The notes under the pieces are model-generated. The model did not search any database, was not told where the DNA came from, and saw only the letters and a list, made by a program, of their open reading frames with translations. From Clostridia bacterium (GTDB lineage Bacteria; Bacillota; Clostridia; Oscillospirales; CAG-272), in NCBI GenBank assembly GCA_024404435.1, contig JAKSPW010000015.1, forward strand, positions 1-13,799: DNA of 13,799 nucleotides. The letters are read 5' to 3'. The stretch's first letter is position 1. Every line of letters starts with the position of its first letter. Position numbers and translations under genes: made by a program. Positions 1,084 through 10,213 of the stretch are shown here, in pieces.

Positions 1084-1340
1084 GATAAGGCAGAGACGGA
1101 AAGAAGTAACGGTTTTTTTCACTGAAGAGAGCGTTCGGCCGGTGCAAGAACGTGTGACGGATCCGCGAATACGTTCCCGAGCTGCTTCCCCGAAACAGAG
1201 TAGGGGAAGACGGGTGCGCCCGTTACGGCGCTTGTGTTAACGACACAGTAAGGTGCTTATTGCGAGATGAGCACAAATCAGAGGTGGTACCGCAATTATT
1301 TGCCCTCTTTCCGTTTGGAAAAGAGGGCTTTATTATTTGT
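1084..1340 (+). ncRNA. T-box leader, tRNA-Tyr responsive
   Basis: A T-box riboswitch binds uncharged tRNA and controls transcription termination upstream of aminoacyl-tRNA synthetase genes. Seen here: a stem I region with the AAGTAA (AGUA) motif near 1105, the AGAGAG and GGTGCAAGA distal elements (about 1126-1149), and the T-box proper GAGGTGGTACCGC (1281-1293) that pairs with the tRNA acceptor end. The likely specifier is UAC (Tyr) at 1170-1172 in the context GAATACG, consistent with tyrS downstream. A terminator follows (1302-1338). The AGAGG at 1280-1284 can instead pair with CCTCT at 1304-1308 in the terminator's left arm, giving the expected antiterminator. Tyrosine starvation should therefore raise tyrS expression. 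The class is certain; the exact 5' end and the specifier are read by eye. Confidence 0.93.
1302..1338 (+). terminator. Conditional terminator of T-box leader
   Basis: GCCCTCTTTCC (1302-1312) pairs with GGAAAAGAGGGC (1317-1328) with one bulged A and a GTTT loop, followed by TTTATTATTT. Its left arm is shared with the T-box antiterminator, so it forms only when charged tRNA-Tyr prevails. Confidence 0.9.
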
Positions 1341-1364: not shown

Positions 1365-2207
1365 ATGCAAATCTATGAAGAACTTGTTGCGAGAGGACTT
1401 ATCGCGCAGGTAACTGACGAGCCTCAGATCAGAGAGCTCGTCAACAACGGCAAGGCTACCTTCTACATCGGCTTCGACTGCACTGCCGACAGCCTTACCG
1501 CAGGTCACTTCATGGCTCTCACGCTCATGAAGAGACTCCAGATGGCAGGCAACAGACCGATCGCTCTGATCGGCGGCGGCACCACGATGATCGGTGACCC
1601 GTCCGGCAGGACCGATATGAGAAAAATGCTCACCAAGGAAGACATCGCGCACAATGCCGAGTGCTTCAAGAAGCAGATGGAAAGCTTCATCGAGTTCGGC
1701 GAGGGCAAGGCGATGATGATCAACAACGCCGAGTGGCTCCTCAACCTCAACTACGTCGAGCTTCTCCGCGAGGTCGGCGCATGCTTCTCAGTCAACAACA
1801 TGCTGAGAGCAGAGTGCTACAAGCAGAGAATGGAGAAGGGACTCTCCTTCCTCGAATTCAACTACATGATAATGCAGTCGTACGACTTCTACTACCTCTT
1901 CCAGCATTACGGATGCAATCTCCAGTTCGGCGGAGACGACCAGTGGTCGAATATGCTCGGCGGCACGGAGCTGATACGCCGCAAGCTCGGTGCTGACGCG
2001 AACGCAATGACGATCACGCTCCTCACCGACTCGCAGGGCAAGAAGATGGGCAAGACCGCGGGCAACGCCGTATGGCTCGACCCGAACAAGACGAGCCCGT
2101 TCGAATTCTACCAGTATTGGAGAAACGTCGGCGACGCGGACGTTATGAAGTGCATCAGAATGCTAACGTTCCTTCCGCTCGAGCAGATCGACGAGATGGA
2201 TAAGTGA
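1365..2207 (+). CDS. tyrS: Tyrosyl-tRNA synthetase, catalytic part, stopped by in-frame UGA
   Basis: Class Ic aminoacyl-tRNA synthetase that charges tRNA-Tyr with tyrosine using ATP. The start is ATG at 1365, eight bases after GGAGG. Motifs: GFDCT (36-40), the HIGH-equivalent TAGH (45-48), GGDDQWSN (189-196) and the KMSKS-equivalent KMGKT (227-231). The catalytic Rossmann domain is complete. Reading stops at codon 281 (TGA at 2205-2207), but the same frame continues open for 126 more codons to TAA at 2586-2588, and the continuation is clearly the rest of TyrRS. Read through, it would be 407 aa, the usual family length. The stop sits in EMDK-stop-DDSR; in related clostridial proteins I recall Trp at this place (EMDKW), so a TGG-to-TGA change explains it. 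Four other Trp codons in this gene are TGG. Without the C-terminal part the product lacks the S4 domain and should bind tRNA poorly. It may be a real nonsense mutation, a sequencing or assembly error, or leaky readthrough. Confidence 0.93.
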
Positions 2208-2342
2208 GACGACAGCCGCATCAATGAGAAGAAGGACATCCTCGCATACGAGCTGACCTCTCTCGTTCACGGAACGGAAGAAGCAGACAAGGCAAGAGAA
2301 GTATCGAAATCGCTGTTCGCAGGCGGCGGAGACGACGCCAAC

Positions 2343-2588
2343 ATGCCGACGACAGAGATCGACGCGTCTGAGATTCCCGAGGACGGCATCAACATCGTCG
2401 ACCTCATGATGAAGTGTGAGCTCGCCGCAAGCAAGGGCGATGCAAGACGACTCATCCAGCAGGGCGGTGTCATCGCGAACGAAGTCAAGGTCAATGCTCC
2501 CGACGAAAAGTTCACGCTCGACGCTCTGAAAGAGGGAGTCAAGATACGCCGCGGTAAAAAAGTGTTCCACAAGGCGATAGTAAAATAA
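2343..2588 (+). CDS. tyrS: C-terminal S4 domain of TyrRS, detached by upstream UGA
   Basis: This is the remainder of tyrS in the same frame as 1365-2207. Coding similarity starts directly after the UGA (codons from 2208 read DDSRINEKKDILAYEL, the helical anticodon-binding linker). The first in-frame ATG after the stop is at 2343 (MPTTEID), corresponding to residue 327 of an intact 407-aa protein. From there 81 aa make an S4 RNA-binding domain: LAASKGDARRLIQQGGV followed by VKVNAPDE and the basic end IRRGKKVFHKAIVK. Independent translation is doubtful: only a GGCGGAG stretch about 11 bases upstream could act as a ribosome binding site, and that is also coding sequence. Most likely it is the cut-off end of one gene rather than a separate gene. 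A terminator follows within three bases. Confidence 0.75.
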   Translation: MPTTEIDASEIPEDGINIVDLMMKCELAASKGDARRLIQQGGVIANEVKVNAPDEKFTLDALKEGVKIRRGKKVFHKAIVK

Positions 2589-6678: not shown

Positions 6679-7859
6679 CAGAATTTCTTTTTCAGTTCGT
6701 CCTTGATGTCGGTTTCTTCCCACGGAGTGCCGAGGTCCTCGCGTCCCATGTGGCCGTAAGCGGCGAGGTCGCCGTAGATCGGGCGGCGAAGTCCGAATCT
6801 CTTGATGATCGCAGCCGGTCTCATGTCGACGAGCTCGCAGAGTGCCTCGGAGATCGCCTCATCGGTGACACCGTCTCTTGCCGTGCCGAAGGTATCGGTC
6901 ATGACGGAAACGGGGCGTGCAACACCGATCGCGTAAGCAAGCTGGACCTCGCATTTTTTTGCGAGTCCCGCCGCAACGACGTTCTTGGCGAGGTATCTTG
7001 CGAGATATGCCGCGGAACGGTCGACCTTCGTCGGGTCCTTGCCCGAGAATGCTCCGCCGCCGTGGCGTGAGTATCCGCCGTAGGTATCAACGATTATCTT
7101 TCTGCCGGTGAGTCCGCTGTCCCCCATCGGTCCGCCGACTACGAAACGTCCCGTCGGGTTGACGTAGATCTTTGTTTCTCCGTCGATGAGGGAAACGTCG
7201 ACTGTCGTTTTAATAACGTTTTCTATAATTTCTTCTCTGATCTGTTCGAGCGTGACCTTATCGTCGTGCTGAGAAGAAACGACTATCGTGTCGACTCTCA
7301 CGGGACGGTCACCGTCGTACTCTATCGTGACCTGCGTCTTTCCGTCCGGACGGAGGTAGGGGAGAGTACCCTTCTTTCTGACTTCCGTCAGCTTTTTCGC
7401 GAGCTTGTGCGCAAGTGCGATGGGAAGCGGCATCAGCTCGGGAGTCTCGTCGCACGCGAAGCCGAACATCATGCCCTGGTCGCCCGCACCGGTGTCGAGG
7501 CCGTCGGTGTCCTCACCCGATTTCGCCTCGCTTGATTTGTCGACGCCGAGCGCGATGTCGGGGGACTGCTCGTGGATCGAGCTGATTACGGCGCAGGTAT
7601 TGCCGTCAAAGCCGTATTTTGCGCGGTCGTAGCCGATACCGACGACGGTATCGCGCACGATCTGCTGAAAATCGACGTAGGAGGACGTCGTGATCTCACC
7701 CATTATGGACACGATGCCCGTCGTGCAGGTCGTTTCGCACGCAACACGCGCCATCGGGTCCTGTCTCAGTATCTCGTCGAGTATTCTGTCGGAGATCTGG
7801 TCACAGATCTTGTCGGGATGTCCTTCCGTCACGGATTCTGATGTAAATAATTTCTTCAT
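6678..7859 (-). CDS. metK: S-adenosylmethionine synthetase
   Basis: Makes S-adenosylmethionine from methionine and ATP, releasing phosphate and pyrophosphate; a cytosolic tetramer with Mg2+ and K+. The protein is 393 aa, the family length. Signatures: TEGHPDK (11-17) with catalytic His14 and Asp16, [10 protein letters not shown] (124-133, PROSITE-type motif 1), and [16 protein letters not shown] (267-282, phosphate-loop motif 2), plus [13 protein letters not shown] (235-247). The ATG is preceded by AAGGAGA six bases upstream. The stop is TGA, directly at the terminator. It is controlled by a SAM-I riboswitch in its leader, giving end-product feedback. Confidence 0.98.
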
Positions 7860-7889: not shown

Positions 7890-8021
7890 AAAAAGGCCTC
7901 ATTTTCTCGGGCGTGCCCGACAAAATGAGGCGATTTTAACTCATCTGTCAGGAATTGGCACCTTGTCTCACGATAGGTTGCCGGGCGTCACAGAGCCAGT
8001 CTCTCAGCCACTCTCGATAAG
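7890..8021 (-). ncRNA. SAM-I riboswitch (S-box) with terminator, metK leader
   Basis: Reading leftwards, the aptamer spans 8021 to 7940. P1 is CTTATC paired with GATGAG (8016-8021 with 7940-7945). Next come GAGAGTGGCTGAGAGACTGG and GCCCGGCAACC, the S-box core with its kink-turn, and then AGGTGCCAATTCC. Downstream, CCTCATTTT pairs with AAAATGAGG (7922-7930 with 7897-7905), topped by a GC stem, then a short U-tract, forming an intrinsic terminator. ATGAG from the P1 3' strand can pair with CTCAT of the terminator's left arm, the expected antiterminator. High SAM should stop transcription before metK. Confidence 0.96.
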
Positions 8022-8044
8022 TGATATTTTGTTTTTACGGGTAT

Positions 8045-8827: not shown

Positions 8828-8844
8828 ATGCGCAAAGCGCTTTT

Positions 8845-8957
8845 GATTCTTCTCTCATCCGGACTCTGACCGTCGGTACGGGAATCTCACCCGTTCGGCT
8901 CCGTTTGGAGTTCGTGGACTATACCACCGGTAAGGAATTTCACCTATCCCCGAAAAA
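8845..8957 (-). ncRNA. FMN riboswitch (RFN element) of ribU
   Basis: Reading leftwards from 8957 the RNA shows the conserved RFN blocks: CGGGGATAGGTGAAATTCC, ACCGGTGGT, AGTCCACGA, GGTGAGATTCCCGTACCGACGGT and AGAGTCCGGATGAGAGAAGA, closing a multi-branched aptamer. FMN binding should favour the terminator at 8805-8827. AGAATC at the aptamer's 3' edge (complement of 8845-8850) can pair with GATTCT in the terminator (complement of 8818-8823), a plausible antiterminator. The effect is repression of riboflavin uptake when FMN is plentiful. Confidence 0.96.
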
Positions 8958-8964
8958 TATTTTT

Positions 8965-9007: not shown

Positions 9008-10213
9008 TTACTCAGCGATATCAGCAACGACGCCGGAACCGACTGTTCTGCCGCCTTCACGGATAGCAAAACGAAGTCCCTTTTCGATTGCGATAGGAGT
9101 GATGAGCTCAACGTTCATGTCGACGTGGTCGCCGGGACGGCACATTTCAACGTCAGCAGGAAGAGAGATCGTACCGGTAACGTCTGTGGTTCTGAAGTAG
9201 AACTGCGGTCTGTAACCGGAGAAGAACGGCTTCTGACGTCCGCCTTCTTTTTCAGTCAGAACGTAAACCTGACCTGTGAACTTTGTGTGCGGGTTGATCG
9301 TACCGGGCTTGCAGAGAACCTGTCCACGCTCGATAGCTTTCTTGTCGATACCGCGGAGAAGAAGACCGACGTTGTCGCCTGCTTCAGCGGAGTCAAGGAG
9401 CTTATGGAACATTTCAACACCCGTGATAACGGTTGTCTTTCTCTCTTCTGTCAGACCGATGATCTCAACGTTGTCGGACATCTTGACTGTACCACGCTCA
9501 ACTCTACCTGTAGCAACCGTACCACGACCTGTGATGGAGAAAACGTCCTCAACAGGCATCAGGAACGGGAGGTCAGCCTTTCTGTCAGGCGTCGGGATGT
9601 AGCTGTCAACAGCGTCCATGAGTTCATGGATGGAAGCGTACTCGGGAGCGTTCGGATCTGTGGAAGTGCAGTCAAGAGCAACACGTGCAGAACCGCGGAT
9701 GATCGGAATATCGTCGCCCGGGAAATCGTACTCGGAGAGGAGGTCACGGACTTCCATCTCAACGAGCTCGAGGAGTTCGTCATCGTCAACGAGGTCAGTC
9801 TTGTTCATGTAAACGACCATTGCGGGAACGCCGACCTGACGAGCGAGCAGGATGTGCTCACGAGTCTGCTGCATAGGACCGTCGGATGCAGCGACAACGA
9901 GGATAGCGCCGTCCATCTGAGCAGCACCGGTGATCATGTTCTTGACATAGTCAGCGTGACCGGGGCAGTCAACGTGTGCGTAGTGGCGGTTTTCTGTCTC
10001 GTACTCAACGTGTCTGGTGTTGATTGTGATACCACGAGCTCTCTCTTCGGGAGCGTTGTCGATCTGGTCGTATGCCATGAATTCGATGTTGCCGTTGCCG
10101 AGAGAAAGTGTCTTTGTGATGGCTGCAGTAAGGGTTGTCTTACCGTGGTCAACGTGACCGATGGTACCAATGTTTACGTGGGGCTTAGTGCGCTCAAATT
10201 TTGCCTTTGCCAT
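9008..10213 (-). CDS. tuf: Elongation factor Tu
   Basis: GTPase that brings aminoacyl-tRNA to the ribosomal A site. 401 aa, full length. G1 GHVDHGKT (19-26), switch region with RARGITINT (58-66), G3 DCPGHAD (82-88), G4 NKTD (137-140; many homologues have NKCD), then GSARVAL as G5. Domain 2 carries [13 protein letters not shown] and domain 3 [15 protein letters not shown]. The ATG is preceded by AGGAGG about eight bases upstream. It follows fusA after 45 bases without a terminator: the last gene of the str operon, as in most bacteria. The stop is TAA. Confidence 0.98.

Follow-up and report, generated by a model that had tools for sequence, protein, structure and literature searches.

The tyrS gene of an uncultured Clostridia bacterium is interrupted by a single in-frame TGA at codon 281, which most probably is a consensus or sequencing error in a fragmentary genome bin (probability roughly 0.7). 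The gene lies in the window, a stretch of 13,799 nucleotides that is one whole contig of the bin. The presence of the TGA in the assembled sequence is confirmed: it stands in a column usually occupied by Trp, in an otherwise intact gene, and the bin carries other, unlike lesions. The base error itself we infer, and the coverage of the bin was probably low. The original prediction had left four options for the TGA: a sequencing or assembly error, a second tyrS or tyrZ elsewhere, efficient readthrough and a working split enzyme. The error is now the best supported of them because conserved genes elsewhere in the bin are damaged in unlike ways, whereas a second gene and a split enzyme became unlikely and readthrough is not singled out by the sequence. 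Accepting the error, tyrS would be an ordinary T-box-regulated tyrosyl-tRNA synthetase (TyrRS) gene, apparently the only one, of a gut-type Clostridia species; codon 281 would most likely be TGG in the living cell, and a normal TyrRS of 407 residues would be made.

Structure of the tyrS gene

The tyrS frame starts with the ATG at 1365, ends with the TAA at 2586-2588 and has the TGA as its sole internal stop (Table 1), so the claim of a gene that is complete except for one codon was borne out by the reading of the frame, as was the count of four TGG codons in it. Both domains of a bacterial TyrRS are present, one before and one after the TGA when the two pieces were searched apart, while the reading frame that should join them is not continuous; in a family search of the bin's own genome the tyrS match spans the TGA. 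Homology resumes after the stop in the same frame, which agrees with the earlier statement that no frameshift is involved. The 378 bases 3' of the stop gave an open frame in 106 of 20,000 base shuffles. In-frame stops flanked by coding stretches were screened ab initio in 81 contigs, which amount to 815 kb or roughly half of the bin; the tyrS TGA ranked second among 89 candidates from 2,181 stops tested. The candidate ranked first is presumably a normal rplC/rplD junction, and most of the 89 resemble gene junctions or antisense frames, five besides tyrS having been inspected in the sequence.

Table 1. Features of the tyrS region, with positions counted from the first letter of the window
Feature	Position	Strand	Details
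T-box leader upstream of tyrS	1084..1310	+	Rfam RF00230, 118.2 bits against a gathering score of 93
tyrS 5' part, codons 1-280, catalytic domain	1365..2204	+	PF00579, profile positions 3-251 of 292
In-frame TGA, codon 281	2205..2207	+	usual codon TGG (Trp), 96/108 distinct aligned relatives
tyrS 3' part, codons 282-407 and TAA, linker and S4-like C-terminal domain	2208..2588	+	PF22421 at residues 50-121 of the piece

In the aligned stem region of the T-box leader, GAAUACG would fit a UAC (Tyr) specifier. An FMN riboswitch before ribU (8843-8961) and a SAM riboswitch before metK (7938-8023), both on the minus strand, are as expected for these genes.

Apart from the stop, the gene is in good condition. 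The window TyrRS deviates at none of 152 near-invariant columns over the whole protein, which is not unusual, since 15 other rows were listed with deviations in these columns. After the stop, dN was 0.14 against a dS of 1.3 to the relative L002 and of 3.1 (saturated) to L003, similar to the values of the L002-L003 pair in the same part (0.12 and 1.4). Compared with its two closest relatives, the C-terminal part thus has a dN/dS of at most about 0.1. In this part the window protein is 81, 79 and 80% identical to L002, L003 and L008, and these three are 84, 72 and 69% identical among themselves. The low dN/dS, the lack of deviations in the near-invariant columns and the normal identity of the C-terminal part mean that the stop is very young, or is read through, or is absent. 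Decay of the gene was ruled out by the intact near-invariant columns and the low dN/dS after the stop.

Codon 281 in related genes

The tyrS alignment included 109 relatives, 108 of them distinct (L007 and L078 are the same): 29 loci kept from whole genomes, out of 49 relative genomes matched, and the best 80 of 595 contig loci. Those with names were mostly uncultured gut Clostridia. The earlier statement that clostridial TyrRS proteins have Trp at this position proved right for the great majority (Table 1), the residue not being invariant: alignment with close tyrS genes shows Trp as the usual residue, and 12 of the 108 carry another sense codon, namely CTT (3), GCC (2), CTC (2), TGC, TTG, CTG, TAC or ATG (one each), for Leu, Ala, Cys, Tyr or Met. 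The single Cys belongs to L009. None of the 108 distinct relatives has a stop codon in this column, which indicates no conserved programmed readthrough. All four aligned genes of the same genus (L002, L003, L007 and L008) have TGG at codon 281, and the closest rows, L002, L003 and L008, are 85-89% identical to the window TyrRS over the whole protein.

In the protein database, which is clustered at 90% so that a same-species copy could hide, no match of the 5' piece exceeded 95% identity among the best 120 of 7,999, and none of the 3' piece exceeded 84% among the best 120 of 619. The top match of the 3' piece among these 120 (P0121, 84%) has Trp at the position of codon 281. Database TyrRS proteins, including those of Gemmiger/Subdoligranulum, reach 94-95% identity to the catalytic part (best 120 of 7,999), whereas in the C-terminal part the identity is no more than about 40-60% for most of the aligned rows that are not close kin. 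One database TyrRS of 479 residues (P0001) repeats about 70 residues in tandem around a KKMGKT motif; this is a duplication or else an artefact of assembly.

Two kinds of TyrRS occur in the genus (g1), one 60-63% identical to the 5' part of the window gene (G001, G002, G004 and G011) and the other 88-93% identical (G003, G005, G006 and G009); each of these eight genomes has one kind only, and the coexistence of the two kinds within the genus suggests gene replacement. The genes of the 60% type, which stand outside the alignment, have open frames of 410-417 residues without a break.

Reading of UGA in the bin and the genus

TGA is used as an ordinary stop codon in the bin. Of the 425 long non-overlapping frames in the 81 contigs (815 kb), 221 terminate at TGA, and a count over 200,858 codons gave 1,383 TGG. 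Within the window, rpsG, metK and ribU all end in TGA, as stated earlier, and the earlier conclusion against recoding of the whole genome is supported. Release factor 2 (prfB) was found over the cut-off in eight of 12 genomes of the genus, including all four that are at least 90% complete. In this bin, which is 80% complete, it was not found over the cut-off; a weaker match of the family is present and is probably prfA, as a match of the same kind accompanies the stronger one in other genomes. None of the 12 genus genomes yielded selA (a control set was over the cut-off in one of 14). A tRNA scan of the bin detected 11 tRNA genes, none of them for Trp and none with the anticodon UCA; in the sister genome G006, no tRNA-Trp was seen in the 49 of 60 stretches that were scanned.

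Number of TyrRS genes

A search of the bin's own genome for TyrRS by protein and by family, including the search for a second gene proposed earlier, found one PF00579 place. Both TyrRS and TrpRS should match this family, so the single place means that trpS was not found in the bin. Two full PF00579 places are present in eight of the 12 genus genomes, and only one of each pair matches the TyrRS query; the other, with open frames of 338-359 residues and in one case 546, was taken for TrpRS. Among the other genomes, this bin has one place, G010 has fragments, G008 has one place that is not TyrRS and G007 has none. Thus, two TyrRS genes were found in none of the 12 genus genomes.

Other lesions in the bin

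The bin comprises 1,502,207 bases in 248 contigs and is 80.21% complete and 1.51% contaminated. Orthologues were compared using queries from the sister genome G006 (60 stretches, 992 kb), which were chosen by codon score, and the resulting cases were sorted by eye. Among 199 orthologue-like genes in the sampled part of the bin there were two clear internal stops, the tyrS TGA and a TAG in ftsE, and one clear frame break (L187). The reverse test in G006 gave no clear case in 191 orthologues, also judged by eye; the cases listed there, a stop at L222:10276 and a frame break in L208, both lay in poor alignments. With cases sorted in this way, the difference between the bin (two or three lesions, 199 genes) and G006 (none, 191 genes) is suggestive only. 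Further candidates in the bin, which inspection did not accept as clear, were a stop upstream of a likely start (L137:6347), a stop in a contig-end fragment with a second one close by (L155:85) and a possible frame break at 50% identity (L161). A cruder run had listed four stops and one frame break in 120 genes of the bin, and 15 stops and three frame breaks in 99 genes of G006; as its queries were chosen by length alone, the G006 cases and two of those in the bin (L149:9133 and L189:9282) were taken for antisense frames, and the latter two were no longer listed once queries were chosen by codon score.

The TAG of ftsE lies on the minus strand of L157 (G000:C179), at about 7,620-7,670, where eight of nine genus relatives have Tyr and one has Phe. 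Five residues that are invariant in the nine relatives are replaced, all of them within 51 bases together with the TAG, and inspection by eye shows a change to G in every one of the six altered codons. One of the replaced residues is presumably the Gln of the Q-loop. This cluster of changes to G suggests base-calling errors. Changes to G are partly expected from the overall comparison of the bin with G006 (572 A to G and 392 G to A), and in view of this bin-wide excess the ftsE pattern points to base errors without proving them. A scan of 158 orthologue alignments for clusters of changes that all lead to the same base found one weak cluster elsewhere and did not flag ftsE itself; the scan is therefore insensitive, and a general signature of errors towards G is not established.

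The frame break of L187 (G000:C216, minus strand, near 9,503-9,507) consists of a gap of about 12 codons with a change of frame, in a gene that we take to encode an alpha-type subunit of a 2-oxoacid oxidoreductase. Besides, a GH88-type hydrolase gene on the plus strand of L115 (G000:C4) is cut by a TGA at 2140, its halves matching PF07470 (positions 27-117 and 170-294 of the profile) with scores that in both cases fall short of the curated cut-off. Single-stop lesions are not peculiar to this bin: in other genomes, stops were seen inside the matches of five ABC-protein rows, all distant, of five listed genes, and the prfB match of G001 (G001:C46:4354-5403) has one TAA inside. Some of the broken genes of the bin may be true pseudogenes. 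Base-level assembly errors are expected to leave conserved genes damaged in different ways, and Cooley and Wright (2024, PMC11017572) trace many internal-stop pseudogenes in bacterial assemblies to errors of assembly that are associated with coverage, assembler and platform.

Alternative explanations

A point against the error is that the tyrS difference is isolated, without a cluster of odd changes like that of ftsE, and is not a change to G. Next after the error ranks a short-lived nonsense allele, with or without leaky reading of UGA. A genuine recent nonsense allele in the sampled population, belonging to a dying lineage or to a minor strain caught in the consensus and involving no special decoding, is possible at a clearly lower probability than the error. 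One substitution from the usual Trp codon would be enough, and the 3' part is undecayed, as expected if the allele were very young; however, tyrS is essential and this is apparently the only TyrRS gene, so a null allele should be lethal and should not reach a majority without compensation. According to Belinky et al. (2021, PMC7918605), bacterial in-frame stops exist mostly on the time scale of polymorphism. It is unlikely that a real TGA is misread as Trp by a normal tRNA-Trp(CCA) at a few per cent, with the T-box raising transcription when uncharged tRNA-Tyr accumulates and so offsetting the loss. The T-box leader is indeed present upstream of tyrS, 6% readthrough of a TGA reporter in a prfB+ strain of Bacillus subtilis is cited in the same source, and in Escherichia coli the reading of UGA is promoted by a tRNA-Trp whose anticodon stem has 4 bp (PMC13092985). 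On the other hand, no aligned relative has a stop at codon 281, the scans of the bin and of the G006 stretches gave no tRNA-Trp, and the TAG in ftsE would not be helped by reading of UGA. A real and fixed TGA is less probable still; in that case leaky UGA-to-Trp reading would supply the sole TyrRS, and the T-box would drive up tyrS transcription until the amount of full-length enzyme sufficed.

The remaining explanations are more doubtful yet. A second intact tyrS or tyrZ in the unassembled part of the genome, making this copy a fresh pseudogene, is very unlikely: the bin is incomplete and lacks trpS as well, but a hidden tyrZ would be without precedent in the genus genomes, none of which has two TyrRS genes. 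A working split enzyme, composed of fragment 1-280 and an S4-like domain started separately from the ATG at 2343, is slightly less credible than that. The match to the C-terminal domain does start after 2343; however, the stop falls within the PF00579 match (position 251 of the 292 in the profile) and not at a domain border, and codons 282-326, which are well aligned with the relatives, would be in neither product. The ATG at 2343 encodes Met 327, which is kept in 84 of the 109 intact relatives, so it is no new start, and the open frame behind the stop does not speak for a new gene. A 319-residue TyrRS fragment of Geobacillus activates Tyr and is not known to charge tRNA. Least probable of all, and practically negligible, is the recoding of UGA, either as Trp throughout the genome or as selenocysteine at codon 281. 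The Cys of L009 in this column and the failure of prfB to pass the cut-off in this bin would fit recoding, but the release factor 2 of the genus, the regular use of TGG and the ending of about half of the long frames in TGA contradict genome-wide recoding, and with selA found in none of the 12 genomes the selenocysteine variant was also rejected.

The consensus error thus stays the preferred explanation. If the TGA were nevertheless real, an essential synthetase would be tolerating a nonsense codon, perhaps with T-box feedback as a buffer. As it stands, the case mainly advises caution: a lone in-frame stop in a fragmentary bin calls for comparison with whatever else is broken in that bin before unusual decoding is invoked.

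Comparison with known systems

The window gene agrees with the bacterial TyrRS (tyrS) in having both the PF00579 and PF22421 domains, 407 codons and a T-box leader, and differs in the in-frame TGA that replaces the usual Trp codon. With the pseudogenes caused by assembly errors (PMC11017572) it shares the setting, a fragmentary assembly with other, unlike lesions in which a conserved gene has an isolated internal stop; there the stops are tied to coverage, whereas the present case is judged from the consensus sequence and is not proven. The short-lived in-frame stops of PMC7918605 resemble it in the single substitution and in the low dN/dS after the stop. The tyrS stop occurs in one genome, whereas that study required a second genome to reduce artefacts. 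Finally, the reading of UGA by a tRNA-Trp with a 4-bp stem (PMC13092985) is similar in that the tyrS UGA stands where Trp is expected, and different in that UGA is a normal stop in the bin and tRNA-Trp is not among its 11 detected tRNAs.
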